64,000 nt of DNA from Thermococcus sibiricus MM 739 (lineage in GTDB: Archaea; Methanobacteriota_B; Thermococci; Thermococcales; Thermococcaceae). The position numbers and the translations under genes were made by a program. Positions 1,958 through 18,657 of the stretch are shown here, piece by piece. Numbering within the stretch: position 1 is the stretch's first letter; every line of letters starts with the position of its first letter. The notes beneath the pieces are model-generated. The model was not told where the DNA came from. It saw only the letters and a program-made list of their open reading frames with translations, and searched no databases. The stretch lies in NCBI RefSeq assembly GCF_000022545.1, contig NC_012883.1, positions 310,001 to 374,000 on the forward strand. Reading direction: 5' to 3'.

Positions 1958-2917
1958 TTAGTTCTCAACAAGCCGGTAAACCCTCACGTAATCCACATAC
2001 ATCCTTGCGGGGAACTTAGTTCTTGCATTTGGTACTCCAGGCCAATTGCCCCCTACGGCCAGGTTGATGATTATATAGAAAGGCTTGTCGAAGACCCATT
2101 CATTATCCATAGTCTCCACTTGCTCCTTTGTGACCACATGGTAGAGTTTACCATCGACGTACCACTCTATCCTGTCGGGGAACCACTCTATGGTAAAGAC
2201 ATGGAAGTCTTCTGTAAAGTCGGGAACACCTTCAGGAAGCGTGTAGCTGTTTGTTATTGATCTGCCTCCAGAATAACCCGGCCCATGGACGGTACCGTGC
2301 ACAGTTCTAGGTTCATGACCGACGAACTCCATTATATCTATCTCCCCACACTGAGGCCAGCCTACTTCACCAATGTTTGTTCCAAGCATCCAGAATGCCG
2401 GCCAGAGTCCTTTTCCATTTGGGAGTTTCATTTTTGCTTCAATCCTTGCGGGGGGCTCAACTTCAACTTTACCCTGGGTTTTGAGTCTTGAGGAGGTGTA
2501 CATGTAAGTTCCGTATTCATCTGTAACCCACTCCTTTCTGGCCTCTATCACGAGGGTTCCGTTCTCGATTCTCGTGTTGTTGGGGGAGTAGTATTCAAGC
2601 TCGTAATTTCCCCATCCGGGAATTCCGTATGCGTGGCCGTTCCCTATCTCAAATGTCCAATAATTTTCATTCACTTTTTCCCCTTCGAAGTCATCGTACC
2701 ATATGAGTTCCCATGTTCTACCGTTTTCCTCTATTGTTTTGGTGATATATGTGGTTTCCGTTGTTGAATTTGTCTGAGTTGATGGGCTTTTTGTGACCGA
2801 CTCCGCCGGAGATGTTGAGAAAGTCTTTGTTGGGGTATTCCCTCCCTCTATGCACCCACCAATAAAGCCTACGAACACAACCACGAGCACTAAAAGTCCA
2901 AAGCTTCTTTTATCCAT
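1958..2917 (-). CDS. lamA: Laminarinase, endo-beta-1,3-glucanase (GH16), lipoprotein
   Basis: A 319-residue GH16 beta-jelly-roll enzyme that hydrolyses beta-1,3-glucan (laminarin) outside the cell. The N-terminus has a hydrophobic signal ending in a lipobox-like GFIGGC (Cys22), then a Ser/Thr/Pro-rich spacer (about 25-60) typical of archaeal surface lipoproteins. The catalytic block GEIDIMEF puts the nucleophile at Glu192, the helper at Asp194 and the acid/base at Glu197; GGYSG-type and IEWYVDGKLYH blocks follow. The catalytic part resembles Pyrococcus furiosus LamA, which from memory is shorter and lacks this long spacer. The start follows the PIN gene stop by 5 nt, so it is translated from the same transcript as the upstream glycosidase and toxin-antitoxin genes. 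Confidence 0.93.
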   Translation of the reverse strand: MDKRSFGLLVLVVVFVGFIGGCIEGGNTPTKTFSTSPAESVTKSPSTQTNSTTETTYITKTIEENGRTWELIWYDDFEGEKVNENYWTFEIGNGHAYGIPGWGNYELEYYSPNNTRIENGTLVIEARKEWVTDEYGTYMYTSSRLKTQGKVEVEPPARIEAKMKLPNGKGLWPAFWMLGTNIGEVGWPQCGEIDIMEFVGHEPRTVHGTVHGPGYSGGRSITNSYTLPEGVPDFTEDFHVFTIEWFPDRIEWYVDGKLYHVVTKEQVETMDNEWVFDKPFYIIINLAVGGNWPGVPNARTKFPARMYVDYVRVYRLVEN

Positions 2918-3415: not shown

Positions 3416-3631
3416 TTATTCCTCCCACTCTTTCAATTTTTTAAGTATGTCGAGGGCTTTCTCACTTTCTTCATCATCAAGACTTATTTTTTCGATTTTT
3501 TTGCCCAGATTGGCAGTGTGCCATGTCTCCAAAAGTATTCTGAGCACCTGGTCATAGGACTTTGCGTCGAGCTTTGCTTTGAGCTTCTTTATTGTGTTCC
3601 AGGTTTCTTCATCAACTGCTATGGTCTTCAT
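3416..3631 (-). CDS. VapB-like antitoxin
   Basis: A 71-residue protein beginning MKTIAVDEETWNTIKKLKAK, the beta-strand plus helix start of the archaeal VapB-type (DUF217-like) antitoxins, followed by SYDQVLRILLETW and a charged C-terminal tail that would wrap the toxin. Its ATG overlaps the stop of the upstream GH1 gene (ATGA), and the PIN gene starts 4 nt after its stop, so the pair is translationally coupled to a sugar gene. I recognise it by sequence style and by its neighbour, not by any search. Confidence 0.75.
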   Translation of the reverse strand: MKTIAVDEETWNTIKKLKAKLDAKSYDQVLRILLETWHTANLGKKIEKISLDDEESEKALDILKKLKEWEE

Positions 3632-5133
3632 ATCATATCACCCCTGAGGTATTCTTTTCTAATCCTATCTGTTATGCCATCATTCTCTATGATCTCTCTG
3701 TACACACCAACACTTTCTTTCCGAGGAATTCTCTCTTTTGTTATCATATCGACTACATAAAGACCAAATCTCATCCTGAAGCCCATGGCCCACTCGTAAT
3801 TGTCCGTCAGAGCCCAGTGGAAGTAGCCCCGGACATCAAAGCCCTCTTCGATGGCCTTTTCTATGTAATCTATATGCGATGCTATGAAGTAGGGTCTCAA
3901 AAGATCTTTGGAATCGGCGATCCCGTTTTCCATTATATATATGGGCTTTCCATAGGACGATGCAGCCTTTATGCTGTTGTATATTCCTTCTGGATAAACC
4001 TCCCATCCAATGTCGCTTACGGGGTGTCCATCTAAGGATGATTCATTTGGTGGGCAAGAGTAACCATAGCCAGGTACTCCCTTGAAAGCCGTGATTGGGA
4101 TTTCCTTGAACTTAGGTTCTGAATGGGTAATAACCTCCCTCGAATAGTATGTCATGCCTATCCAGTCGAGCCGCTTTAAATGGGGTACCTTCAACATTGT
4201 TTCCATATCAAATTCAGCATTTAGCTCTCCCTCGGTCAGTGCTTTAAGCAGAAGTCCACTGTGGAAGAAGTCGACCATTTCAGCTGCTTTAACGTCCTTG
4301 GGGTTGTTAGGGTCTTTGGGGTAAGATGTTCCCACGTTGTTCGCGATTATTCCAACAGGCGCTTTTGAGAAATTCTTTATTGCTTCATAGGCCCTTGCGT
4401 GAGCGTTTATTATGTTAATAATTGCCTTCTTTGCGTTTTCTGGACTTATGACTCCCGGGGGAAATCCCGAATACGGAGCTAGGTAACCAAGCTCAACCAT
4501 TACCATAGGCTCGTTGAATGTTGTCCACATGTCCACAAGATGCCCAAACTTGTAGGCAAGGTAAGCTGCAAACTTTGTGAACTCTATTATGGAGCGTTGG
4601 TTTACCCATCCGTTTCTTTCGTTTTTTAGGTTGGTTTCCCTAGATTCTATTGGATCATGTAGCCATAGAGGATGTGTATAATGGACAATGGTTATAAACA
4701 CTTTGAATCCCATCTTCTTCAGGTTTGAGAGAACACTCATGTAGTGCTCAACTTCCTCAATGTTTGCAATATTGTTAAGTTCTTCAAGGACTTCTTTGGT
4801 GATTTTAACCTCTTTAATCAGCCCGTTACTATCAAGCTCGTAGTCGACGTCAATTCCATAGGTTGCACATGGGAATATTCTGCTCCATTCTAGGTTGAGG
4901 GAGTAGGCATTAGCCCCAAGCTTCTTTGCAAGGAGATGATCGATAGGATAAAGTTCGTAGTTATTTATACCTTCTTCGGGCAAATCTCCACTTACAAGTC
5001 CTTTTTTTAGATTGGTGGGATCCCTAACCCATTTCCACCAATCACTTCTTATGTCTAGGTGTCTATTGAATCTATCCCCCATTTCGAACTGGAAACCGGA
5101 CTGAGCAACTCCCCAAAGAAACTCTTTTTCCAT
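3628..5133 (-). CDS. GH1 beta-glycosidase (CelB/LacS-like)
   Basis: A GH1 TIM-barrel beta-glycosidase that releases glucose or galactose from beta-linked oligosaccharides in the cytoplasm (no signal peptide). From the ATG at 5133 the acid/base is Glu208 in TTFNEPMV and the nucleophile Glu402 in IMENGIADS; WFHWALTDNYEW-type aglycone/glycone residues are present as YFHWALTDNYEWAMGF. I prefer this ATG, with GGGGGA 6 nt upstream, over an in-frame TTG at 5139 that would overlap the upstream gene by 4 nt. It is one of two GH1 genes in the island; the other is at 17194-18657. Substrate (cellobiose, laminaribiose or agaro-oligomers) cannot be told from sequence. Confidence 0.93.
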   Translation of the reverse strand: MEKEFLWGVAQSGFQFEMGDRFNRHLDIRSDWWKWVRDPTNLKKGLVSGDLPEEGINNYELYPIDHLLAKKLGANAYSLNLEWSRIFPCATYGIDVDYELDSNGLIKEVKITKEVLEELNNIANIEEVEHYMSVLSNLKKMGFKVFITIVHYTHPLWLHDPIESRETNLKNERNGWVNQRSIIEFTKFAAYLAYKFGHLVDMWTTFNEPMVMVELGYLAPYSGFPPGVISPENAKKAIINIINAHARAYEAIKNFSKAPVGIIANNVGTSYPKDPNNPKDVKAAEMVDFFHSGLLLKALTEGELNAEFDMETMLKVPHLKRLDWIGMTYYSREVITHSEPKFKEIPITAFKGVPGYGYSCPPNESSLDGHPVSDIGWEVYPEGIYNSIKAASSYGKPIYIMENGIADSKDLLRPYFIASHIDYIEKAIEEGFDVRGYFHWALTDNYEWAMGFRMRFGLYVVDMITKERIPRKESVGVYREIIENDGITDRIRKEYLRGDMI

Positions 5134-5135
5134 CT

Positions 5136-6611
5136 TCAATCCCCCTCATAACCAGTGAGATGTATCTCCTCAAGTTTCCTATTTAACTCTTCGAACATGA
5201 TTACCATCTCCTCGTAAGGCTCATCTTTAATGTTTACAAGTCCATAGTTGCTGTTCTCTCCATCAAAGCGGCCTTCCTTGGGCTGGTCTGACCACTTGAA
5301 CCAGTGATAGCCGACTGCGTATGGGAGCTTCATGAAGCTCTCTATGAATTTTCTCGTATATTCAGCCCTCTCTTTTTGAGTTTGAACTGTTATTCCTGCT
5401 CCTCTTGTGTTTGGAAGACCAGAATCCATAGCCCTAAAAGAGAATTCCGTTATCATTATAGGTCTTCCCGTGATGTTATGAATGTGGTCAAGGTACTCTT
5501 TTGGAGCCACCTCAAAGTTATAGAGGTTGAGGGATATTACATCAACATATTTCCCTGCAACTTCAAAAACGACATCTGGTGGCCTGATGAATGGAGCTAC
5601 TGCGAATCTTACTCCCAATATGAGATGGTTTGGATCAACTTCCCGTATAGCTTTTGTAACTACACTAAAGTACCTTTCCGCATACCGTCTTGCAAACTCC
5701 CGTCTAGCCTCATTAAATGGAGCACTCGATGGGAGCTTCCCAGTGTAGTTAAGCAAATCATCAAAAGATGTATAACTTGTTTTAAGCTCTTCGTTTAGCT
5801 TGGAGATATCCCCATTGAAAATATCTTTTATGACATCCACTGCTACTCGTTTTCCGGGAGCGTCTGGGGGAAGTTTTATGAAATCGTCCAAAAGATGATT
5901 GCCGGATCTCCAGTCCGGACCCCAACGCAGTTCATTATCTGTAAAATATCCTATTATCAAAGGATCATCCTTGAGGGGAGCGACTTTAAAGGAGACTGCC
6001 TTTTTTACGTACTCTTCAAAATCTTTCTCGAATATATCTGGCATGGCTCCACTTTCCCAGTTAAAACCGTAACTTGCTCCTATATCAAGAAGGAGAGTGT
6101 AAGGAAGCATTACATAAAGTTCAGGAGAAGACCAAGCGCCAACAGTATTGAAACCCCACTCAACGAACCTTCTGGTTGTGGTGTTAATCCACCCTTCTAT
6201 ACTCCCGTATTTTCTAAGGACATTAAGATAGTAAGGAGAGTAACCAAGTGCGGGTGAATGATCTCCGAGGTAATTTATTGCGTTTACACCTTTAGATACA
6301 AAAACATAACCTTCAGGATCAACAAGCCAGTATTTTCCGTTTATAACTTCTACTCTAAAGTAACCTGAGCTTTCAACCCTCAATTCCTTCCATCCTCCAA
6401 ACTTGGAATATCCTTCCGGAAACTCCACTTGGGGTTTTATTCTCTCTTCGCTTTGAGTTGTCGTGGTTGAAGTTTCTATATAAGTAGTAGTGGTTTTTTC
6501 AGTAGTTTTAGAGGTGGAAGTAGTTTGGTTTCCTCCAAGACATCCTAGGAATAATGTGGAAATCAGGATTACTCCGAGGATCATGCCATAAACTGCTTTT
6601 CTCAAATTCAC
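5136..6611 (-). CDS. Agarase-like glycoside hydrolase lipoprotein (GH50/GH86-like)
   Basis: A 491-residue secreted (alpha/beta)8 hydrolase. The N-terminus has a hydrophobic signal with LFLGCLGG lipobox and a Thr/Ser-rich spacer. Likely catalytic acids are Glu in GYFTDNELRWGPDW (acid/base) and Glu in RPIMITEFSFRAMDSG (nucleophile), the arrangement of clan GH-A. The phrases FVSKGVNAINYLGD and GYHWFKWSDQP recall GH50/GH86 agarases; I also recall a beta-agarase in the Thermococcus sibiricus island. True substrate (agarose versus another galactan or glucan) is an inference. The start is uncertain: GTG at 6611 is very close to GGGGGT, while TTG at 6605 has better spacing. The next gene begins 2 nt after its stop. 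Confidence 0.75.
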   Translation of the reverse strand: MNLRKAVYGMILGVILISTLFLGCLGGNQTTSTSKTTEKTTTTYIETSTTTTQSEERIKPQVEFPEGYSKFGGWKELRVESSGYFRVEVINGKYWLVDPEGYVFVSKGVNAINYLGDHSPALGYSPYYLNVLRKYGSIEGWINTTTRRFVEWGFNTVGAWSSPELYVMLPYTLLLDIGASYGFNWESGAMPDIFEKDFEEYVKKAVSFKVAPLKDDPLIIGYFTDNELRWGPDWRSGNHLLDDFIKLPPDAPGKRVAVDVIKDIFNGDISKLNEELKTSYTSFDDLLNYTGKLPSSAPFNEARREFARRYAERYFSVVTKAIREVDPNHLILGVRFAVAPFIRPPDVVFEVAGKYVDVISLNLYNFEVAPKEYLDHIHNITGRPIMITEFSFRAMDSGLPNTRGAGITVQTQKERAEYTRKFIESFMKLPYAVGYHWFKWSDQPKEGRFDGENSNYGLVNIKDEPYEEMVIMFEELNRKLEEIHLTGYEGD

Positions 6612-6652: not shown

Positions 6653-7789
6653 CTAAAGTTTCCTCCTTAGTACCAGCGGAATCATTACTAGTCCCAAAAG
6701 AGCTGCTGGACCACAAATTCCTCCAGCGCTTTCGGTGACTGTCTCGGTCTCAGTGAGTGTCTCTGTGACTTTTTCGGTCTTGGTAGTCGTTTTGGTTTCG
6801 GTTATGGTCTTTGTTTCAGTAACGGTCTGGGTTGTCTTGATGATCTTTGGTGCTTCGCTTGGGGAAAGCACAGTTGCGTCGTAAATTATCCATCCGTATT
6901 CGAAGCTTGTCCCCTCGCTTCCGCTGTAGGAGCCTATTGAAATTGACGTCCATTGCTGGTTCTCCACCGGCATACCGAAGAAGTCGAAAAGCTGTTCAAC
7001 GACCTTGTCTATCATGGGTTTGATATCAATAACCACCTCTCCAGAAGTTGGAAGTGGCTCCTGTGGCATGAAGAGTAGTACACCCCATCCGCCTCCGGAA
7101 AGAGCCCTTTGAACAGTAAACTTTGCATTAGTATTAAGTTCTCCGTTTATGATTACTGTTGAGGTTACCTCACCAATTTCCGTTACATCACCAACAATTC
7201 CTCCGAAGTCGTCAAAGAATGGCACATATATTTCTCCGATTGGAGCTCCAGTGGCTGGGTCTTCGAACCATATGTTTATCCCGAACCTTACCAAGGTGTC
7301 ATCTCTCTTGGACACGTCATACTTAACCTTCACCCACATGCTATCATAGCTGGAGAGCTCTGAGGCTGGAAGCGGAAGCTGAAGGTAATCATAGCCCCCG
7401 ACAGGTGCTTTATCCCCCCACCACTGGGCAGGTGCTCTTCCGTCTATTATAACCTCTGGAGTTGCCCAAGCTATCCCGCCCCACTGTGTCTCAACGTTCT
7501 CGAGGTTAACGTAGAAGGCGAAATCTTCGGTTGCTTTGACAAACCTCATAAAGACTTCTCCTTGGCCACCAATGATGTTCCAGAAGTTGGTTTGCATCCA
7601 GACGGTTCTACCATCACTTAACTGGATTGGTTCCTCAAGCCACTGATCCCACCAAGTGAATTGGATCTCTCCTTCCTCTGCAGTTGAAGCCACAGCCTTT
7701 ATATCCTCAAGGCTGGCGGCTGTTGCCATCCCGGCGAAAACCGCCAATACCATAAATACTCCCAGTAGCTTTTTGAGAGTTTCACTCAT
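6653..7789 (-). CDS. Secreted GH12-like beta-glucanase-fold protein with CGP-CTERM anchor
   Basis: A 378-residue exported protein: signal peptide (about 1-24), one GH12-like beta-jelly-roll (about 35-310), a long Thr/Glu/Lys/Val repeat linker (TETKT, TKTEKV, TETVTES) and a C-terminal GGICGPAALLGL-hydrophobic-RRKL segment, the CGP-CTERM sorting signal known from Thermococcales surface proteins. Blocks match P. furiosus EglA by eye: FWNI, GGIAWATPEV, WVKVKYDV, then GEIYVPFFDDFGG, whose Glu fits the GH12 nucleophile. The usual acid/base position (IGTE) reads IGSY here. It has its own TATA-like element (GTTTATATG) and GGTGATT upstream of the ATG. Cellulase activity is therefore unproven; a carbohydrate-binding role is possible. 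Confidence 0.7.
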   Translation of the reverse strand: MSETLKKLLGVFMVLAVFAGMATAASLEDIKAVASTAEEGEIQFTWWDQWLEEPIQLSDGRTVWMQTNFWNIIGGQGEVFMRFVKATEDFAFYVNLENVETQWGGIAWATPEVIIDGRAPAQWWGDKAPVGGYDYLQLPLPASELSSYDSMWVKVKYDVSKRDDTLVRFGINIWFEDPATGAPIGEIYVPFFDDFGGIVGDVTEIGEVTSTVIINGELNTNAKFTVQRALSGGGWGVLLFMPQEPLPTSGEVVIDIKPMIDKVVEQLFDFFGMPVENQQWTSISIGSYSGSEGTSFEYGWIIYDATVLSPSEAPKIIKTTQTVTETKTITETKTTTKTEKVTETLTETETVTESAGGICGPAALLGLVMIPLVLRRKL

Positions 7790-7907
7790 GGGGAATCACC
7801 ACTTATAAATTGCACCCATTACATATAAACTTTTTCAAAATTATAGAATACTACATAAATTATAATAACTCAATGGTAAAATGATAGAAATTAAAGAAAA
7901 AATGGAG

Positions 7908-9749
7908 TCAGCCAATTGACGGAACATCCTCGGGCTTAACTACCCTGACGTCATGGATTATCCATCCGTACTGGAAGCCTGTGCCTTTACTGCCGCTGTA
8001 AGAGCCAACTGCCATTGACACCCAAGTGTTTTCTTTCCCGATGATTTTGGCGATCTCAGCCACTAGTGGCTTTACGTCTATGTAGACCTCTCCTGAAGGT
8101 ACTGGGTCTTCAGGTATGAACTCAAAGCTCCACCAGTTGCCCGGATTCCAGCCTCTCTGGAGTGTAAAGCTGGCTTGGGTAGCTCTTCCATTGATTACCA
8201 TGGTGGTCGTGACCTCCCCGAGGTTCTCTTTGTCACTGAGAACTAGTCCTCCAAAGTCATCGAAGAAGGGGATGTAAACCTCTGCCGCGGGCCATCCTTC
8301 GATGTTCTCGAACCATATGCCAATGCCAAACCTCACCAGTGTATCGCTCCTCTTTGTCACGTTGTAATCCACCTTGACCCATATACTATCGTAGTTGTTG
8401 ATTTCACTGGCCTTGAGCGGAAGGTCGAAGAATCCGTAGCCTCCCACCTTAGGCTTGCCTCCCCACCATACTGCAGGTGATCTTCCAGCGAAGATGACTT
8501 CTGGAGTTGCCCAGGCTATTCCGCCCCACTGTGTCTCAACCTTCTCTAGGTTAACGTAGAAGGCGAACTCGTCTGTTCTGTGGATATAACGCATGAAGAC
8601 TTCTCCTTGGCCACCAATGATGTTCCAGAAGTTGGTTTGCATCCAGACGGTTCTACCATCACTTAACTGGATTGGTTCCTCAAGCCACTGATCCCACCAA
8701 GTGAACTGAATGTCACCCGGCCCCTTGGTGGAAGCTATGCTCCAAAATTCCTTGAACTTTGTTGAGAAGATCACATTCTCTTCTAACTCTTCGGTGGCCT
8801 CTTTGATCAACCAATAGGCGTTTTTAATGTATTTTACCACTTTTAAATCGCCTTTTGGATATGAGATGGCGTTCATATATTCATTCTCAGCCTGAGTTTT
8901 GAGTTCCTCAGCTTTTTCAATGAGTTCAGGTTCAATGTTCAAATATTGTGCCTCTAAAAGAAGTGACTCGTATTCTTTCAAGAGGGAATGGTATTTCAGG
9001 GAATACTCACTGACCTCCTTGGCTGCTCTCATGAACAGGAAGGCCTTTCTTAAGTGGACAAACACTCTAAGATTGCCTGCTTGGGTGTAGACCGCCCCTC
9101 CGGATATTCTAGAGGCCTCGGAGTATTCTTTCTCTCCGAGCTCCTTTAGGGTCTGGGCAATTGCAGTTAAGTTGTCATTAAGAGACGAGAGATTTTCTTT
9201 AAGGATCATGTATTTGTTCAAGTCCCTTTGGTAGTTGAAATAGTAATAGAAACCAAGCACTGTGAAAATATTGGAAGCTTCGGTTGGCTTCTCTTCAAGT
9301 TTCTTTTCAGGTGTTGGGGGAGCGGTGAGCTGGATGACTCTGGCATCATACAGTATCCATCCGAGCTCGAAGTTGTTCCCGTTGCTTCCGGTGTAGGTTC
9401 CAAATGCTAAGGAGCTCCATATTATGTCCCCCTCAGTGTAGTCCGAGTACTCGTCAGCGATTATCTCTTTAACCACCTTATCAACGACAGGCCTTAGGTC
9501 AACAATGACCTCGCCTGAAGTCGCGAGTGGCTTCTCGGGTATGAAGTCAAAGGCAAAGTTGTTCCAGTTCCAAGCCTTCTGCACTCTGAAAGTAACGTTT
9601 TTGGCTTCTCCATTGATGCGCACGGTGAGCGTTACGCTCCCGACATCGGCAGGAGGGAACTGGGCACCCACGATTCCACCGTAGTCGTCAAAGAATGAGA
9701 TGTAGACCTCTGCGAGCTGGTAACCATCTTGCTTCTCAAACCACATCAT
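7908..9749 (-). CDS. GH12-like multidomain protein, C-terminal part (after in-frame stop)
   Basis: 613 codons in the same frame as the ORF that ends at 9753; only a TGA and one TTC codon separate them. The N-terminal 150 residues are the second half of the GH12-like domain begun upstream (AEVYISFFDDYGG, FGTYTGSNGNNFELGWILYD). Residues about 160-340 form a helical, charged segment unlike the other domains. Residues about 345-613 are a third GH12-like domain (QTNFWNIIGGQGEVFM, AEVYIPFFDDFGG, VGSYSGSKG). No ribosome-binding site lies before the ATG at 9749, so this half is probably not made unless the TGA is read through or is a sequence error. No C-terminal anchor is present. Confidence 0.7.
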   Translation of the reverse strand: MMWFEKQDGYQLAEVYISFFDDYGGIVGAQFPPADVGSVTLTVRINGEAKNVTFRVQKAWNWNNFAFDFIPEKPLATSGEVIVDLRPVVDKVVKEIIADEYSDYTEGDIIWSSLAFGTYTGSNGNNFELGWILYDARVIQLTAPPTPEKKLEEKPTEASNIFTVLGFYYYFNYQRDLNKYMILKENLSSLNDNLTAIAQTLKELGEKEYSEASRISGGAVYTQAGNLRVFVHLRKAFLFMRAAKEVSEYSLKYHSLLKEYESLLLEAQYLNIEPELIEKAEELKTQAENEYMNAISYPKGDLKVVKYIKNAYWLIKEATEELEENVIFSTKFKEFWSIASTKGPGDIQFTWWDQWLEEPIQLSDGRTVWMQTNFWNIIGGQGEVFMRYIHRTDEFAFYVNLEKVETQWGGIAWATPEVIFAGRSPAVWWGGKPKVGGYGFFDLPLKASEINNYDSIWVKVDYNVTKRSDTLVRFGIGIWFENIEGWPAAEVYIPFFDDFGGLVLSDKENLGEVTTTMVINGRATQASFTLQRGWNPGNWWSFEFIPEDPVPSGEVYIDVKPLVAEIAKIIGKENTWVSMAVGSYSGSKGTGFQYGWIIHDVRVVKPEDVPSIG

Positions 9750-9752
9750 GAA

Positions 9753-11276
9753 TCATGGCCTTACGAGGGTGTTCTCACTCTTAACGAGCTCAAAGTCAAC
9801 CTTGGCCAGTATGCTGGCATAGTTCGTTCTATCCTTGGCGGGCATTGGGAGGTCAAACCACCCATAGCCTCCTGCTCTTGGAAGCGGAGTCCCGCCGCTG
9901 AGGCTTGGAGGAACCCTACCGGCCAGGACAACGTTTGGGGTTGCCCAAGCTATCCCACCGTACCGTGTTTGGATATTGGTCATGTTGACATAGAATACTA
10001 CTGTATCCTCAGAACTTATGAACCTCATGTAGTTCTCGCCATCCCCACCGGCTATGTTCCAGAAGTTAGGCTCAACCCAGAGGGTGGTGTTATCGCTTCT
10101 CGTGACCAGTTGACCTGGCCATGTGCATACCTGCCTTGTTACCCCATTGTCGTCGTAGGGGGGAGCCCAGTAGTCACCAGATGTCCACTGGAGGACAACA
10201 TCTCCCGGTTCTGCCTCGGTCGAGAGGTTTTTGACCTTGTAGAAGAGGGCCTCCTTTAGGGATTCAAATACTCCAGCTTCTTTCAGGATCCATCCGAGCT
10301 CGAAGCTGTTCCCGTTGCTTCCGGTGTAGGTTCCAAAACCTATGGAAGTCCAGGTTATCTGGTCTGCTGTCCAGTCGGAGTACGGGTCATCCACGATGGC
10401 TTGTATTGATCTCTCAGCGAATGGTGTGACGTTCAGGGTGACTGAGCCTCCCGTTGTTATGGGTTCTGTTGGAACGAACTTAATGACGAAGTGGTCTGCA
10501 TTCCATGCTCTTTGGACTTTAAACTCCACTTCTTTGGGGGCCCCGTTTACGTAAACCGTAGCTGTAAGTGTTCCTATGTCTGCGGGTGGGTACTGGAGGT
10601 TCTTTTCATGATCATCGTAGAAGAAATCATCTTGGAATGCTATGTAGACTTCTGCAAGGGGCCAGGCTTTGCCAGTCCCGTATGGATCCCAGTCTGGGCT
10701 TTCAAACCACATTATTAAGCCGGTTCTTGCAAGGGTTTCTTCGCTTTTGGCCATTTCGAAGTCAACGCGGGCCCATACTTCTCCGAGGGTTGACACATCG
10801 GCCCCATTTACAGGAAGGCTGAAGAAGTCGTAACCTCCAACGAGTGGCTTGTCACCCCACCATGCTGCTGGTGCTCTTCCTACGAAGATGACGTTTGGAG
10901 TGGCCAGGGCGTCTATGGGGGAAGTGCTGCCGTCCCACCTTGGGGCAGTTTCAGTGTACGTTCTTTCAATGTTGCTCATGTTTGCGTAGAATGCTATTGT
11001 ATCTTCTGAGCTTATGAACCTCATGTAGTTCTCGCCGTCACCGCTGGCTATGTTCCAGAAGTTAGGTTCCATGTAAATTGTTGTCCCATCACTCCTCTGA
11101 ACAATCTGCCCCGGCCAAGGATTGCTTGGGGACCACTGAAGGGTTATGTCTCCCTGCTCTGACGACTTTGCTACTTCCTTAATCTCGGAAAGAGTAGTTG
11201 CTGCAACATATCCTCCAAGTAGAACCAATATCAAAAAGACCCCAGTTAAGTGCTTCAGTTTCCCTCTTAATGCCAT
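9753..11276 (-). CDS. GH12-like multidomain protein, N-terminal part (ends at in-frame TGA)
   Basis: 507 residues: signal peptide (about 1-27, ending YVAATT), one complete GH12-like domain (about 40-335; EPNFWNI, GRAPAAWWGDK, AEVYIAFQDDFF, FGTYTGSNGNSFELGWI) and the first half of a second one (from about 355), cut at LVRP by TGA 9753-9755. The other copies have Gly at that point (LVRFG, LARTG), so a GGA-to-TGA change is the simplest reading; the joined gene 7908-11276 would encode about 1122 residues. The ATG has GGTGATC 4 nt upstream and a TATA box near 11306-11317. It heads the minus-strand half of the island, divergent from the oligosaccharide transporter. A secreted two-thirds product truncated in domain 2 is what would be made as written. 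Confidence 0.72.
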   Translation of the reverse strand: MALRGKLKHLTGVFLILVLLGGYVAATTLSEIKEVAKSSEQGDITLQWSPSNPWPGQIVQRSDGTTIYMEPNFWNIASGDGENYMRFISSEDTIAFYANMSNIERTYTETAPRWDGSTSPIDALATPNVIFVGRAPAAWWGDKPLVGGYDFFSLPVNGADVSTLGEVWARVDFEMAKSEETLARTGLIMWFESPDWDPYGTGKAWPLAEVYIAFQDDFFYDDHEKNLQYPPADIGTLTATVYVNGAPKEVEFKVQRAWNADHFVIKFVPTEPITTGGSVTLNVTPFAERSIQAIVDDPYSDWTADQITWTSIGFGTYTGSNGNSFELGWILKEAGVFESLKEALFYKVKNLSTEAEPGDVVLQWTSGDYWAPPYDDNGVTRQVCTWPGQLVTRSDNTTLWVEPNFWNIAGGDGENYMRFISSEDTVVFYVNMTNIQTRYGGIAWATPNVVLAGRVPPSLSGGTPLPRAGGYGWFDLPMPAKDRTNYASILAKVDFELVKSENTLVRP

Positions 11277-11317: not shown

Positions 11318-11366
11318 ATTTACCTAAAGCTATAACTAAGGAACCAGAATTATAATTTTGAAAAAA

Positions 11367-11374
11367 TTTATAAG
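11367..11374 (+). promoter_or_regulatory. TATA box for the cbt transporter operon
   Basis: TTTATAAG preceded by a purine/A-rich stretch; a start about 25 nt on leaves a leader of roughly 35 nt holding a small CCCTA/TAGGG hairpin before the GGGGG ribosome-binding site of the binding-protein gene. Confidence 0.55.
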
Positions 11375-11429
11375 TTATGAGCCCTATAGTCCCGTAGGGA
11401 ATATTAAAAATTTACTCGGGGGTATGGGA

Positions 11430-13472
11430 ATGAACGACTCAAAAAGAAAGTTGATAACTAGTTTCGGAATTTTTTTGATTTTTATGGCAATGTTACCGTC
11501 TGCAAGCGCGCAAGTCTCTCTTCCAAGGGAAGACACGGTTTTCGTGACCGGTGCGCAATGGAGCCCTGCATCAACGTGGAACCTGTTCTCGCCATCCCAG
11601 ACGTGGGGAACATACACATCGGGCGGATTCATGTATCTACCGCTCTTTCAGTACATAGCAGGTCTCAACATGTGGGTCCCCATAATAGGTGAGAGCTTTG
11701 AGCTCGTAAACGAGACAACTCTCCTCGTTTACCTCAGACCTGAAGCAAAATGGAGTGATGGAAAGCCCATTACTGCGGAGGACGTTGAATATACTTACAA
11801 ACTCTCCAGAGAAGTTGGTTCTGGGCCTGCTGCAGGTTCAGAGCCCTACATCAGCGATGTTAAGGTAATTGATACACACACAGTTCAGTTCACAATTGGA
11901 GAGGAAAAGAACCTTCCTATGTTCTTGCTTTATGCTCTCCAGTTTGCCCCTGCACCGAAGCATATCATTGAGCAAGTATATGAAAAAGTTGGAGCAGATA
12001 TCATAAACTGGAGAAACTGTGGTGGAACATGTGATGACATAGTCTCCACAGAGAGTGGAGATGTAAGGATAGATCTCCCCCAAGTAGTCTCGGGTCCCTA
12101 CAAGCTGTACTACTTTGATGAACTCAGAATTGTCTATGAGAGAATAGACGATTGGTGGGGGAAAGACATCTTTGGACTACCGGGTCCAAAGTACCTAGTT
12201 CACAGAATCTACCTAAGTAATGAGCAGGCACTTCTGGACCTTAGACAGGGAAATGTTGACTGGTCGGGCATATTTATTCCAAATGTCGGTAACTTCAAGG
12301 AAATAGGCACGTTCTATAAGAGTAAACCTTACTTTAGGCCAGGAGCTTTTGTTATGCTCTACTTAAATCACAGGGATCCGATTTTCCAGGACACCAACTT
12401 AAGAAAAGCTATTGCCTATGCAATAGACTATCAAGAGGTCCTAACCAAAGCATTCTACGGTTATTCAGAGCAACCTTCAATGTCTTTGGTGTTTACGGTA
12501 TTTCCCCACTATAGGATGTGGCTCAACACTACCCTTGCTCAAGAGTATTTCAGCAATCCCGAGGGCAGGATACAGACCAACAAGGAGTTCGCAAAGCAGA
12601 TTCTTGCTCAGGCGGGATATAAGGATGTGGATGGTGATGATTATCTTGAAACTCCCACTGGTGAAAAGATCGAGCTTAACATAATAATACCAACCGGATG
12701 GACAGACTGGATGATTGCAGCCGATTTGATTGCAAGTGACCTCCAGGACATTGGACTTAACGTCGTGGCAAACCCAGTGGATTACGGTGCCTACTGGGGT
12801 ATGGTAAACTCTGCTGGATACACCCTGGCCCTTGGATGGACAAGCTCCCCGTCCTTCTATCATCCATGGGACACCTACCGGTATGTTCTTGATCCAAGAC
12901 TCACTCCCCCAACCGGGAACTGGGGCTTCTATAACAACTCCAAGGCTTTGGAGTTCCTCGTTCAGGCAGCAAAGGCTGAGACCTCGGAAGAGCTCATGAA
13001 ATACTACACTGAAGTTCAAAGACTCATATATGAGGAAGTCCCTGCTATCCCAATTGCCTATTCGGTTCAGTGGTACGCTTACAGTGAAAAGTACTGGAAG
13101 GGATGGCCAAATGAAGACAACCCGTGGTGGACCGAAGTCGCTCCATACAGAGAGTACTCCCTACCACTCTGGCTCACTTTTGGTTTATCAAAAAGTGGAG
13201 AAGAGATTAAACCGCCACAGTGGGCCAAGCCCAAAGATGAAGGAGGAATTTTAATACCGAACAAAGAACTCCTCAGTCAGCTTACAGAAGTTTTTGTTCC
13301 CGAGATTACGCCAACCGAGACGTTTTCGACTTCATCCGCTTCGGAAACTGAGCCTCAATCACCCAGTGAACCACAAGAGCCGAGTAGAAGTTCAGGATTC
13401 ATTATAGGGCTTGTAGGAATTATCATAGTAGTCATTATAATTGTGATAGGTGCCAGAAAACTTCTCAAATGA
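11430..13472 (+). CDS. cbtA: Oligosaccharide/oligopeptide ABC transporter binding protein (CbtA-like, SBP family 5)
   Basis: The extracellular solute-binding protein of a Dpp/Opp-type transporter. Signal peptide (LITSFGIFLIFMAML to SASA), SBP_bac_5 body with WSDGKPITAEDVEYT near residue 95 and RKAIAYAIDY near 330, then an acidic Ser/Pro/Glu linker and a C-terminal membrane anchor (GFIIGLVGIIIVVIIIVIGA) followed by KLLK. I chose ATG 11430, 7 nt after GGGGG; ATG 11424 and an upstream ATG at 11358 lack proper spacing. The family also carries peptides, but position beside glycanases and a GH1 gene, and similarity in layout to P. furiosus CbtABCDF, argue for beta-gluco-oligosaccharides. Confidence 0.85.
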   Translation: MNDSKRKLITSFGIFLIFMAMLPSASAQVSLPREDTVFVTGAQWSPASTWNLFSPSQTWGTYTSGGFMYLPLFQYIAGLNMWVPIIGESFELVNETTLLVYLRPEAKWSDGKPITAEDVEYTYKLSREVGSGPAAGSEPYISDVKVIDTHTVQFTIGEEKNLPMFLLYALQFAPAPKHIIEQVYEKVGADIINWRNCGGTCDDIVSTESGDVRIDLPQVVSGPYKLYYFDELRIVYERIDDWWGKDIFGLPGPKYLVHRIYLSNEQALLDLRQGNVDWSGIFIPNVGNFKEIGTFYKSKPYFRPGAFVMLYLNHRDPIFQDTNLRKAIAYAIDYQEVLTKAFYGYSEQPSMSLVFTVFPHYRMWLNTTLAQEYFSNPEGRIQTNKEFAKQILAQAGYKDVDGDDYLETPTGEKIELNIIIPTGWTDWMIAADLIASDLQDIGLNVVANPVDYGAYWGMVNSAGYTLALGWTSSPSFYHPWDTYRYVLDPRLTPPTGNWGFYNNSKALEFLVQAAKAETSEELMKYYTEVQRLIYEEVPAIPIAYSVQWYAYSEKYWKGWPNEDNPWWTEVAPYREYSLPLWLTFGLSKSGEEIKPPQWAKPKDEGGILIPNKELLSQLTEVFVPEITPTETFSTSSASETEPQSPSEPQEPSRSSGFIIGLVGIIIVVIIIVIGARKLLK

Positions 13473-13484
13473 TAGGTGGTAGTG

Positions 13485-14492
13485 ATGAGACCATTATACA
13501 GGTATTTCCTCATTAAACTTTCTTTTTTACTCGCTACGTACTTTGTTGCCGTTAGTATCGCATTCTTTCTGCCCAGAATAGCTCCGGGCAATCCAGTGCA
13601 GCAGATTATAGCAGGACTATCCCAGGGTTCGCTCTCACCTGAGCTGCTCGATCAATATCAAAGGAGGCTTATAGAGGAGTTTGGGTTAAACAAGCCCCTC
13701 CATGTTCAGTATTTAGAATTCCTTAAAAACGCATTTTCAGGGAATCTGGGGACTTCGATATCTTCATTCAGACAGCCCGTGACGAAGTTAATAGCTTGGC
13801 ATCTACCTTGGACGCTACTCCTGCTCATACCGGCTACCTTGGTTTCATGGGCCGTTGGAAACTATCTCGGTGCAAGGGCGGCTTACAGAAGAGGCACATT
13901 GTTCGAAAAGATCACTGTCTCAACGGGCATAATAACCTCCCAAATTCCATATTACTGGATGGCCATGGTTCTCATATTCGCCTTCGCAATTAAGCTTGGA
14001 TGGGTGCCCTCGGGTTCAGCCTATGACCCAACTTTAGCTCCCTCCTTCAGCTGGGAGTTCATAAAAAGCTACCTCCGTCATTACATACTTCCATTCTTAT
14101 CCATAGCCCTTGTGAGTACTGGAGGATGGATAATAGGCATGAGAGTCTTAGCAACAATGGAACTTGGGTCAACGTACGTCAATTTTTCCGAGAGGCTCAA
14201 CGTTAGCAACGAGATTATATTTAGATATGTCCTCAGGAATTCCCTGCTCCCACAAGTGACAGGAATAGCAATCCAGTTGGGAACGGTTATGGCCGGACAG
14301 ATTATCACGGAGCAAATTTTCAACTACCAGGGTATGGGTATCCTTCTTGCTAGGGCACTTGGAACGAGGGATTATCCATTGATACAAGGGATCTTTCTCA
14401 TTCTGATAGGAACACTCCTGCTTGCGAACTTCATAGTGGAGTTCATCTACGTGCTAATAGATCCAAGAATAAGGCTTGGAGCAAGGGAGTGA
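13485..14492 (+). CDS. cbtB: ABC transporter permease (CbtB/DppB-like)
   Basis: A 335-residue inner-membrane permease of the DppB family: an N-terminal membrane helix, a conserved ARIAPGNPVQQ-like segment (PRIAPGNPVQQIIAG), five further helices and the C-terminal coupling region GTRDYPLIQGIFLI. The ATG at 13485 follows GGTGGTAGTG; the in-frame GTG at 13476 lies inside that ribosome-binding site and is rejected. It starts 12 nt after the binding-protein stop and pairs with the next gene to form the translocation pore. Confidence 0.88.
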   Translation: MRPLYRYFLIKLSFLLATYFVAVSIAFFLPRIAPGNPVQQIIAGLSQGSLSPELLDQYQRRLIEEFGLNKPLHVQYLEFLKNAFSGNLGTSISSFRQPVTKLIAWHLPWTLLLLIPATLVSWAVGNYLGARAAYRRGTLFEKITVSTGIITSQIPYYWMAMVLIFAFAIKLGWVPSGSAYDPTLAPSFSWEFIKSYLRHYILPFLSIALVSTGGWIIGMRVLATMELGSTYVNFSERLNVSNEIIFRYVLRNSLLPQVTGIAIQLGTVMAGQIITEQIFNYQGMGILLARALGTRDYPLIQGIFLILIGTLLLANFIVEFIYVLIDPRIRLGARE

Positions 14493-14503
14493 GGTGATTA
14501 ATT

Positions 14504-15352
14504 ATGAACAAGGAAATACTTTATGTACTCTTCAGAAATAATAGGTTCTCCATAGGGTTCGCCATATTGATGTTTGAAATCCTTTTAGCTTTATTTGGTG
14601 CCTATCTCTACCCCGTGGATCCTTTTAAGCCTGCTGGGCCTCCGGCAGTTCCACCAAGTAGTGAGTATCTTCTCGGAACAGATCAGTTTGGAAGGGATAT
14701 CCTTGCACAGGTGGTAATAGGTATAAGGAACTCTCTCTATGTAGGAGCCCTTACGGGATTATTCTCGATTCTCATAGGACTCATAATCGGAATTGTGGCT
14801 GGAATAAAAGGTGGGCTCATAGATGAAACGTTAATGGCCTTTACTAACGTTGTCATTACAATACCCAACGTCCTTCTAGCCATTATCATAGCGACCTACC
14901 TCGGCCTTGAGCATTCAGGACTCACATTGGTGGCTGCGATAATATCGCTGACTGCTTGGCCGTGGTTTGCGAGAGCAATAAGGGCACAGTTAATCAGTCT
15001 AAGGGAAAGGGACTTCGTTAACTTTTCCAAGATGACAGGTTACAGTGATCTTAAGATAGCAGTTTTTGACCTATTCCCCTACGTGACTACCTACACCATA
15101 GTTTCCTTTGTCACTTTCATGAACATAGGGATAAACGCAGAGGTTGGGCTCAGCATACTAGGATTAACACCAATTCAAATAATGACCCTCGGAAAGATGC
15201 TCTACTTCGCAGCAGTTACTCAGTCGTACTTCCTCGGTCACTGGTGGGTCTTCATACCTCCGGGAATACTTCTAGTGGCTCTTTCGACTTCACTGCTCTT
15301 GATAGCTACGGGAATAGAACAGGTATTTAACCCAAGACTGAGGGAGATGTGA
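14504..15352 (+). CDS. cbtC: ABC transporter permease (CbtC/DppC-like)
   Basis: A 282-residue DppC-family permease. It has the family start (one helix, then a loop with LGTDQFGRDILAQVVIGIR), the pore helices, and a cytoplasmic coupling loop REDFVNF-like (LRERDFVNFSKMTGYSD). GAGGTGAT lies 5 nt before the ATG. Second pore subunit of the oligosaccharide importer. Confidence 0.88.
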   Translation: MNKEILYVLFRNNRFSIGFAILMFEILLALFGAYLYPVDPFKPAGPPAVPPSSEYLLGTDQFGRDILAQVVIGIRNSLYVGALTGLFSILIGLIIGIVAGIKGGLIDETLMAFTNVVITIPNVLLAIIIATYLGLEHSGLTLVAAIISLTAWPWFARAIRAQLISLRERDFVNFSKMTGYSDLKIAVFDLFPYVTTYTIVSFVTFMNIGINAEVGLSILGLTPIQIMTLGKMLYFAAVTQSYFLGHWWVFIPPGILLVALSTSLLLIATGIEQVFNPRLREM

Positions 15353-15362
15353 GGTGTGAACG

Positions 15363-16379
15363 ATGGACAAAAGAATGGTTCTTGAGGAGTTAAGGGCATA
15401 CTATCGTCAACTCAAGGGAACGACCGAGTATCTCGTGAAGGCAGTGGATGGCGTTAATTTAGAAGTGTACAAGAAAGACATCCTTGGTCTTGTTGGTGAG
15501 AGCGGGTGTGGTAAGTCTACCCTCGCCAAAACCATGATGATAGATTTGACCCCCCCGTTGCAATATATGGGAGGTAGACTTGAGATTATAAGCAGAGATG
15601 GGGAAAGGTTTGAGATAGGTCAATTCAAAAGCAGAGATGAAGTTAAAAGACGTCTTTGGGGTAAACATATAACTTATGTCCCGCAAGACGCCCTGAACGC
15701 TCTCATGCCCACAATAAGGATTAAAAAAATTGCCTATGATGTTCTTCGCTCGCATAACAATGACATTAACTTCCAAGAAGCAGTGAAAACCACAAAAGAG
15801 CGGCTTGCTGAGCTTGACCTCCCTGACTATGTGGTTGAACTCTACCCCTTCCAGCTGAGCGGAGGGATGAGACAGCGAGTAGTGTTGGCCATGGCAACGC
15901 TTCTGAACCCGGAAATCCTTATAGTAGACGAGCCGACATCAGCACTCGATGTAACTACTCAGAAAATAGTCTTAAAGTCTCTCCTCAAGCTCAGGAAGTT
16001 AAATCTCGTGGACAGCATCATATTTATAACACATGATATAGCCACGGTGAGACAGATAGCAAACCGCATAGTGGTTATGTACGCCGGAAAGATAGTTGAA
16101 GTGGGTCCAGTAGATTCCGTAATTAGGGATCCTCTCCATCCCTACACGAAAGGTCTCATCGATTCTGTTACATCCATAGAGCCGGAGAAGAGGGAGAAGG
16201 GTATCTCCTACATCCCGGGACAGCCACCCAATCTTATAGATCCTCCAAAAGGATGTCGTTTCCATCCAAGATGTCCATATGCTATGGATGTTTGCAAGAA
16301 AGAGGAGCCAGGGGTTGTTGAAGTTGGAAAAACTCAAGTAGCGTGCTGGCTTTACGAAGGAGGTAGGAAAAATGACTAG
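15363..16379 (+). CDS. cbtD: ABC transporter ATP-binding protein (CbtD/DppD-like)
   Basis: A 338-residue ATPase of the DppD/OppD group. Walker A GESGCGKST near residue 45, signature LSGGMRQR near 165, Walker B ILIVDEPTSALDV near 190, and the C-terminal oligopeptide/dipeptide extension with PGQPPNLIDPPKGCRFHPRCPYAMDVC, whose cysteines often bind an iron-sulfur cluster in this family. GAGGTGTGAACG precedes the ATG; the 3' end overlaps the next gene by 8 nt, so the two ATPases are co-translated. Confidence 0.88.
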   Translation: MDKRMVLEELRAYYRQLKGTTEYLVKAVDGVNLEVYKKDILGLVGESGCGKSTLAKTMMIDLTPPLQYMGGRLEIISRDGERFEIGQFKSRDEVKRRLWGKHITYVPQDALNALMPTIRIKKIAYDVLRSHNNDINFQEAVKTTKERLAELDLPDYVVELYPFQLSGGMRQRVVLAMATLLNPEILIVDEPTSALDVTTQKIVLKSLLKLRKLNLVDSIIFITHDIATVRQIANRIVVMYAGKIVEVGPVDSVIRDPLHPYTKGLIDSVTSIEPEKREKGISYIPGQPPNLIDPPKGCRFHPRCPYAMDVCKKEEPGVVEVGKTQVACWLYEGGRKND

Positions 16380-17190
16380 AGAGATGCTCATCTGTGATAA
16401 CGTCACGAAAGTATTCACATCAGGCTTCATCAAAAAAATAGTGGTCAAAGCGGTTGACAACGTGTCCTTTACGGTTAAAGAGGGCGAGATAATATCCCTG
16501 ATAGGACAGAGCGGTTCTGGAAAAACCACTCTTGGAAAGATAATACTCCGGCTTATCCCTCCTACTTCTGGAAGGGTGCTTTTTTACGGGAGGGATATTT
16601 GGAAGGAGATAAAAACCAAAGAGGAGCGCAAAGAGTACTGGAGACAGGTGCACGCGGTCTTCCAGAACCCTATGGGGAGCTTTAACACTTTCTACAAGGT
16701 AGATAGAGTCCTAAACCAAGCTCTTGAGCTCATAGGTGTTGAACCCAATTCAGAGGAGGGCATACGCCTAAAAGAAGAGTCTCTTAAGGCAGTGGGCCTA
16801 AATCCAGGGGAGATCCTTGGAAAATATCCTCACCAGCTCTCTGGGGGTCAGGTTCAGAGGGTCATGATATCAAGAAGCTGGATTCTAAAGCCAAAGCTGT
16901 TAATCGCTGACGAAGCAGTTTCAATGCTGGACGTGTCAACGAGGGGTAGGATAGTAGAGATTTTCAAGGATCTCCGCAACAAGCTTGGAAGTTCTATAAT
17001 ATTCATATCCCATGACATAGGCTTATCCTACTTCATCTCTGACAGGGTCTTCATAATGTACAAGGGAAAGATCGTGGAGGCGGGGACACCTCAAGAAGTT
17101 ATTGATAACCCGCAGCATGAATACACTAAGACGCTCGTAGAAAGTGTTCCAACCGTTTACAGGAAATGGGAGGACTTTATGGAGGTGTGA
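16372..17190 (+). CDS. cbtF: ABC transporter ATP-binding protein (CbtF/DppF-like)
   Basis: A 272-residue ATPase that partners CbtD. Walker A GQSGSGKTT near residue 44, Q-loop VFQNPMGSFN, signature LSGGQVQR, and Walker B LLIADEAVSMLDV. It lacks the full cysteine-bearing C-terminal extension of its partner. ATG has GGAGGTAGG upstream, inside the end of the previous gene. Confidence 0.87.
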   Translation: MTREMLICDNVTKVFTSGFIKKIVVKAVDNVSFTVKEGEIISLIGQSGSGKTTLGKIILRLIPPTSGRVLFYGRDIWKEIKTKEERKEYWRQVHAVFQNPMGSFNTFYKVDRVLNQALELIGVEPNSEEGIRLKEESLKAVGLNPGEILGKYPHQLSGGQVQRVMISRSWILKPKLLIADEAVSMLDVSTRGRIVEIFKDLRNKLGSSIIFISHDIGLSYFISDRVFIMYKGKIVEAGTPQEVIDNPQHEYTKTLVESVPTVYRKWEDFMEV

Positions 17191-17193
17191 AAG

Positions 17194-18657
17194 TTGCTCA
17201 GGTTTCCTAAGGAGTTCCTATTTGGTTACTCTTGGTCTGGATTCCAGTTTGAGATGGGATTGAAAGGGAGTGAAGTGCCCCACAGTGACTGGTGGGCTTG
17301 GGTTCACGACGTGGAGAACATAGCCTCCGGTTTGGTTAGTGGGGACCTGCCAGAAAACGGCCCGGCCTACTGGCACCTTTACAAGCAGGATCATGACATC
17401 GCTGAAAAACTTGGAATGGGTGCCATAAGAGGGGGAATAGAGTGGGCGAGGCTCTTTCCGAAGCCCACCTTTGACGTTAAGGCAGACATTGAGAAGGATG
17501 AAGAAGGAAATATGGTTGCTGTCGATGTTCCGGAGAGAGCCATTGTGGAGATGGAAAAGCTGGCGGACATGAAAGCACTTGAACATTATCGAAAGATCTA
17601 TTCGGACTGGAAAGATCGGGGTAAGGTCTTCATCTTGAACCTCTATCACTGGCCACTTCCGCTCTGGCTTCATGACCCAATCAAAGTGAGAAGACTCGGT
17701 CCTGACAGGGCTCCAAGCGGGTGGCTTGACGAGAGAAGTGTTGTGGAGTTTGCGAAGTTCGTGGCTTTCGTGAGCTACCATCTTGACGAGCTGGTGGACA
17801 TGTGGAGCACCATGAACGAGCCCAACGTGGTCTTTGAAAACGGCTACTCAAGGCCAACTTCTGGCTTTCCACCGGGTTATCTGAGCTTTGAGGCCTCTGA
17901 AAAAGTCGCCAAAAATCTCATCCAGGCCCACGCCCGTGCGTACGACGCCATAAAAGAGCACTCTGACAAGCCCGTTGGACTAATATACGCTTACACATGG
18001 CTAGACTCTCTAAGGGAAGACATCGAAGATGAAGTAAAGAGAATACGCGAGACAAACCTTCACCGCTTCGTGGACTCTGTTTACTTCGGCAGTTCGAGCC
18101 TCTCTGAGGGTAGGGAAGACTTGAAAGGCCGCGTCGATTGGCTTGGGGTGAACTATTACTCAAGGCTTGCCTTTGATAAGGTGGGAGATTACATAATGCC
18201 CGTATCAGGTTATGGATTTTCGGGTGTCAAGAGGGGCTACGCAAAGTCAGGAAGGCCATGTAGTGACTTCGGATGGGAGATATATCCCGAGGGACTTGAG
18301 AAGCTTCTCAAAGAACTTCATGAGAAATACAGCGTTCCAATGATTATAGCAGAGAACGGGATTGCCGACGAGAGCGATAGGTACAGGCCCTATTACCTCG
18401 TGAGTCATCTCCAGGCGATTCATAACGCTATGAAAGCCGGGGCGGATGTAAGAGGTTACCTGCACTGGTCATTAACGGACAACTACGAGTGGGCTCAGGG
18501 CTTCAGGATGCGCTTCGGACTCCTTCATGTAGACTTCGAAACTAAAAAGCGGTACCTGAGACCTAGTGCCCTCGTGTTCAGGGAGATAGCGACACATAAG
18601 GAAATACCCGAAGAACTGAGCCATTTGGCAGATTTAACGCCCCTGATGCGGCAGTGA
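17194..18657 (+). CDS. GH1 beta-glycosidase (second copy), TTG start
   Basis: A 487-residue cytoplasmic GH1 enzyme: acid/base Glu209 in STMNEPNVV, nucleophile Glu387 in IIAENGIADE, and YLHWSLTDNYEWAQGF in the active-site wall. It starts at TTG 17194 with GGAGGTG 6 nt upstream, 3 nt after the last transporter stop, so imported oligomers and hydrolase are made together. It is clearly related to the GH1 protein at 3628-5133 (shared SGFQFEMG, GDLPE, RSVVEF/RSIIEF blocks) yet distinct, suggesting a split of substrate preference rather than redundancy. More GC-rich codon choice than the sugar genes at 32-45 kb. Confidence 0.92.
   Translation: MLRFPKEFLFGYSWSGFQFEMGLKGSEVPHSDWWAWVHDVENIASGLVSGDLPENGPAYWHLYKQDHDIAEKLGMGAIRGGIEWARLFPKPTFDVKADIEKDEEGNMVAVDVPERAIVEMEKLADMKALEHYRKIYSDWKDRGKVFILNLYHWPLPLWLHDPIKVRRLGPDRAPSGWLDERSVVEFAKFVAFVSYHLDELVDMWSTMNEPNVVFENGYSRPTSGFPPGYLSFEASEKVAKNLIQAHARAYDAIKEHSDKPVGLIYAYTWLDSLREDIEDEVKRIRETNLHRFVDSVYFGSSSLSEGREDLKGRVDWLGVNYYSRLAFDKVGDYIMPVSGYGFSGVKRGYAKSGRPCSDFGWEIYPEGLEKLLKELHEKYSVPMIIAENGIADESDRYRPYYLVSHLQAIHNAMKAGADVRGYLHWSLTDNYEWAQGFRMRFGLLHVDFETKKRYLRPSALVFREIATHKEIPEELSHLADLTPLMRQ

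Follow-up and report, generated by a model that had tools for sequence, protein, structure and literature searches.

The window, meaning the whole 64,000-nucleotide stretch analysed here (positions 310001–374000 of a single-contig archaeal genome of 1,845,800 bases), contains the gene cluster listed in Table 1. One of its members, here termed gene A, runs on the minus strand from an ATG at 11276 to a terminator TGA at 7908–7910, and within its 1122 codons there is a sole internal stop, an in-frame TGA at codon 508, with no other lesion anywhere in the frame. At the break the minus strand reads CTC GTA AGG CCA TGA TTC ATG ATG TGG TTT GAG, the TTC occupying 9750–9752 and the first ATG 9747–9749, directly followed by a second ATG. 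As the initial annotation had noticed, the two listed ORFs thus lie in one frame with only TGA-TTC between them, and the interruption falls inside a repeated domain, identified here as the second of three copies. The segment linking domains 2 and 3 evolves fast (30% identity to its counterpart in a related genome, G060). It also shows weak similarity to parts of many other large Thermococcaceae frames, and is perhaps a shared surface module.

Table 1. Genes and features of the cluster in the window, with the evidence for each
Feature	Position	Strand	Evidence
GH16 enzyme	1958..2917	-	PF00722, E 1.4e-29
GH1 beta-glycosidase	3628..5139	-	BgaS model above cut-off
GH50 agarase-like protein	5136..6611	-	phmmer against beta-agarase 5z6p, E 3.6e-53
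Gene B, 378 aa, fourth GH12-fold domain (6860-7711) and CGP-CTERM sorting tail (6659-6718)	6653..7789	-	domain search; TIGR04288
Gene A, joined frame, 1122 codons, three GH12-fold domains, signal-peptide-like N-terminus, own terminator TGA	7908..11276	-	uninterrupted orthologue, L062 6311-9544
Downstream ORF of 613 aa, running from mid-domain 2 through the linking segment to domain 3	7908..9749	-	ORF list
GH12-fold domain 3 of gene A	7932..8753	-	domain search
Segment linking domains 2 and 3, ~190 residues, unlike the GH12-fold domains	8754..9329	-	
GH12-fold domain 2 of gene A, interrupted by TGA	9330..10238	-	domain search and predicted fold
Upstream ORF of 507 aa, spanning domain 1 and ending halfway through domain 2	9753..11276	-	ORF list
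In-frame TGA, codon 508, replacing a conserved Gly codon	9753..9755	-	alignment of domain copies
GH12-fold domain 1 of gene A	10263..11192	-	domain search
Solute-binding protein of Opp/Dpp-type importer, divergent from gene A	11358..13472	+	PF00496, E 7e-59
Importer permease 1	13476-14492	+	model match
Importer permease 2	14504-15352	+	ORF sequence and order
Importer ATPases, two	15363-16379, 16372-17190	+	ORF sequence and order
Second GH1 beta-glycosidase (BgaS)	17194..18657	+	model match

Gene B, which lies next to gene A, is small and intact. Its C-terminus (residues 358–377) matches the CGP-CTERM model TIGR04288 with 26.5 bits against a cut-off of 21, and neither gene A ORF gave a match to this model. 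Clusters of the same type recur in three other Thermococcaceae genomes (G060, G054 and G048), in a fourth (G053) without an adjacent importer, and with one domain copy in a Thermoproteota metagenome-assembled genome (MAG). The latter relative was found by an alignment-based scan of genome contigs, a single-sequence scan of which returned no domain relatives, and its cluster also contains an 896-aa ORF (L150 1679–4369) that by eye resembles a GH3 enzyme with permuted halves. Across these five Thermococcaceae genomes, the host included, and the MAG, each cluster carries 1, 2 or 4 copies of the domain, all of them lacking the catalytic Glu residues of GH12 (window 6653–11276; L062, L063, L064, L065, L150).

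The codon at the break and the intact orthologue

At the position equivalent to the TGA, Gly is found in all 12 other domain copies, drawn from the host genome, four other Thermococcaceae genomes and the Thermoproteota MAG, which extends an earlier observation made on the sister domains of gene A. The motif LVRP*FMMWFE of gene A corresponds to LVRPGIIMWFE in G060 and LVRPGFMMWFE in G054, where the Gly codons are GGG and GGC, respectively. GGA is the commonest Gly codon of the locus (176/439) and the only one that lies a single base away from TGA. Most simply, then, the ancestral codon would have been GGA, converted to TGA by one substitution, the same route that the initial annotation had proposed.

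In G060 the orthologue of gene A is a single uninterrupted ORF of 1077 aa in matching gene order (L062 6311–9544), and therefore both halves belong to one gene and a chance joining of the two is excluded. This agrees with the joined three-domain protein of about 1120 residues that had been envisaged earlier; a second frameshift, or relatives in which each half is self-contained, had been named as evidence to the contrary, and the one open gene of G060 is the opposite. The two proteins are 61% identical before the stop and 54% after it, and dN amounts to 0.32 before the stop and 0.37 after, with its lowest value, 0.23, in the half-domain directly following the stop; synonymous sites are saturated in this comparison, so that dN/dS is rough. 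Such a pattern of divergence is that of a young lesion or a sequence error rather than of an old pseudogene, and a true lesion would probably be a recent one.

The TGA also creates a perfect inverted repeat, CATGA-T-TCATG, together with a direct repeat, CATGAT, at window positions 9747–9757. The local repeat is CATGATTCATGATG; across the locus, 4% of GGA-to-TGA changes produce a direct repeat of length at least 6, and 0.6% produce a direct together with an inverted repeat. A templated mutation would leave such repeats, but this idea arose post hoc and carries no weight here.

GH12-fold domains and the missing catalytic Glu residues

A profile of 11 domain copies matched the GH12 cellulases among PDB chains (E 7.8e-9 to 1.3e-6), and an AlphaFold2 model of the domain (mean pLDDT 91.5, pTM 0.90) found GH12 structures as all of its best PDB matches in Foldseek, including T. 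maritima Cel12A (3o7o, E 8e-20, TM 0.84 by target length) and P. furiosus EglA. The Pfam GH12 model PF01670, which recognises a true GH12 from the genus at 1.9e-27, gave no match to the domains. In the predicted fold the TGA corresponds to model residue 169, and since this residue lies midway along a beta strand (164–175), the half-domains on either side of it should not fold. A possible coincidence of the TGA with the GH12 nucleophile was considered and ruled out, as both profile and full-length alignments place the TGA one strand earlier.

Both catalytic Glu residues are conserved in GH12 (PMC4853606), and both are absent from the present family. The nucleophile (E134 of TmCel12A, E197 of EglA) is replaced by Tyr in 13/13 copies, and the acid/base Glu (E290 of EglA) is likewise missing from all 13, its position being occupied by Tyr in the profile alignment and by a gap beside Tyr in the MAFFT alignment. 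Because every copy lacks them, the domains are not expected on sequence grounds to hydrolyse sugars by the GH12 mechanism, and the reading as an active GH12 glycanase was rejected. Thus, of the earlier description as a GH12-like protein and a secreted glycanase, the GH12-like fold stands and the glycanase is not supported. Substrate-binding residues of GH12 include an N-x-W motif at the -2 subsite and a conserved Met and Trp adjoining the nucleophile (PMC4680936); the former is invariant in the domain copies (N65 and W67 of alignment A1), and the latter two are replaced. With N-x-W kept and the catalytic-side residues gone, sugar binding is a better guess than glycanase activity, and capture of polysaccharide at the cell surface appears to be the likeliest role of the domains. 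They share the predicted fold, sequence homology and N-x-W with the thermophile GH12 endoglucanases (Thermotoga maritima Cel12A, 3amh/3o7o; Pyrococcus furiosus EglA, 3vgi; Thermococcus sp. 2319x1 GH12-2, 7s8k), but differ from these enzymes in lacking the catalytic Glu residues and a Pfam GH12 match, in their replaced +1 subsite Met and Trp, and in their arrangement as tandem repeats.

The domains might instead still be enzymes, employing a new catalytic apparatus built from the conserved Tyr and a neighbouring Glu. The invariance of Glu184, Tyr186 and Tyr289 (alignment A1) is in keeping with this notion, as is the occurrence of Tyr nucleophiles in other families, such as the GH33 sialidases. 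However, we know of no GH12 member with a Tyr-based apparatus, and the otherwise conserved Met and Trp are replaced as well; an enzymatic role of this kind is considered unlikely.

Readings of the internal stop

The observations as a whole are best explained by a single-base nonsense lesion, either a recent mutation or a reference error, in an otherwise intact gene that would encode a non-catalytic GH12-fold surface glycan binder, a reading to which we assign a probability of roughly 85%. Gene A resembles the single-lesion nonsense pseudogenes and reference errors of microbial genomes (one stop substitution, a frame otherwise intact, an intact orthologue), and no unusual feature was found to set it apart from ordinary cases of this kind.

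The genome searches found no machinery for recoding the UGA. Neither tRNA-Sec (RF01852) nor SelB (TIGR00475) gave a match above cut-off in the genome, in accord with the earlier remark that Thermococcales are not known to use TGA for selenocysteine; those RF01852 matches below cut-off that were checked are ordinary Lys, Arg, Cys, Gly, Leu and Thr tRNAs, and the sub-threshold matches to the SelB model are, in our reading, other translational GTPases. A tRNA with a UCA anticodon was not encountered among the 45 tRNAs found in the genome (0/45), the Trp tRNA not being located among these; one tRNA that ARAGORN missed has a CAT anticodon by eye and seemingly an intron. TGA terminates gene A and seven others of the 12 genes inspected at the locus. 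Selenocysteine at the gene A UGA was rejected, given that RF01852 and SelB fall below cut-off and that homologues have Gly rather than Sec or Cys at the site, and a code in which UGA is reassigned to Gly was discarded in view of the tRNA anticodons (no UCA) and the continued use of TGA as a terminator. Where a review on archaeal recoding deals with UGA readthrough, it describes selenocysteine insertion, and a term search found Thermococcales nowhere mentioned in it (PMC8211752). One could still envisage programmed UGA readthrough without Sec or Pyl machinery, whereby one gene yields a short secreted product as well as a long glycan-binding protein of several domains, and indeed no further stop interrupts the frame for 614 codons and constraint persists beyond the TGA, as seen in the low dN of the half-domain that follows. 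Yet a sense codon stands at the site in the orthologue and in every other copy, so there is no conserved recoding signal, and in addition to the missing selenocysteine components the genome search found no UCA-anticodon tRNA. Readthrough is possible, yet no result favours it, and we regard it as very improbable. Just as improbable are two functional genes, with translation restarting at the ATG three bases past the stop. The tandem ATG ATG directly after the stop would suit a restart, but the downstream ORF, unlike most genes of the locus, has no Shine-Dalgarno sequence before its first ATG; it also lacks a signal peptide and starts midway along a beta strand, and its counterpart in G060 is part of a single gene.

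Within the favoured reading of a single-base lesion, a true recent nonsense allele of the sequenced strain is somewhat preferred over a base error in the reference, since G048, G053 and G054 have only one or two domain copies and the loss of gene A thus looks tolerable. An error of sequence or assembly taken alone, in which case the strain would have Gly and make the full-length protein, is a tentative alternative, at distinctly less than even odds. It gains from the nature of the lesion, one isolated substitution in a frame otherwise intact and still constrained, and is weakened by the state of the sampled genes of the assembly, almost all of which are intact, so that the sequence is generally clean. 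Substitution errors are moreover less common than indels in such data, which also counts against an error. In a disruption survey that set 464 kb of the host genome against 800 kb from a congener (273 genes, 91,216 residues), a single case besides gene A was clearly broken mid-gene, and in seven other flagged cases the stops lie near either end of the query frame, which suggests over-extended starts or late ends. The one clear case, outside the window at G000:C1:677288-679341 (within L166), is interrupted at codon 112 by an in-frame stop and shifts frame near codon 430 relative to a 685-aa congener ORF. The rarity of disruptions in the sampled part of the genome would fit mutation and error alike.

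Putative function and significance

As written, the sequence would allow the strain to make at most a secreted fragment of 507 residues, comprising domain 1 and half of domain 2, with the rest lost, and gene A function would presumably be abolished by the TGA. The intact protein, as in G060, may be pictured as secreted and made of GH12-fold domains in series, which would bind polysaccharide at the cell surface without cleaving it by the GH12 mechanism. It would act together with the anchored product of gene B and with the importer and the GH16, GH50-like and GH1 hydrolases of the cluster. In this scheme the surface modules would hold the polysaccharide while secreted hydrolases cut it, the importer would take up the pieces, and the GH1 enzymes would complete their degradation; the substrate could be an agar-type polysaccharide or a beta-glucan. 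The arrangement is reminiscent of Thermococcales polysaccharide-utilisation clusters with CGP-CTERM proteins and Opp-type importers, in that GH16, GH50-like and GH1 proteins, an importer and an anchored surface protein occur together, but here, unlike in those clusters, a GH12-fold module devoid of the GH12 catalytic residues forms the surface protein.

The break itself is ordinary in kind. Its main consequence concerns annotation, the two reference ORFs being one gene, and either half expressed alone would yield a broken domain. More interesting is the non-catalytic GH12-fold family, which is retained within a conserved cluster alongside beta-glycosidases and, mostly, an Opp-type importer. 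If its domains do bind polysaccharide, they would constitute an archaeal surface device for glycan capture derived from a cellulase fold.
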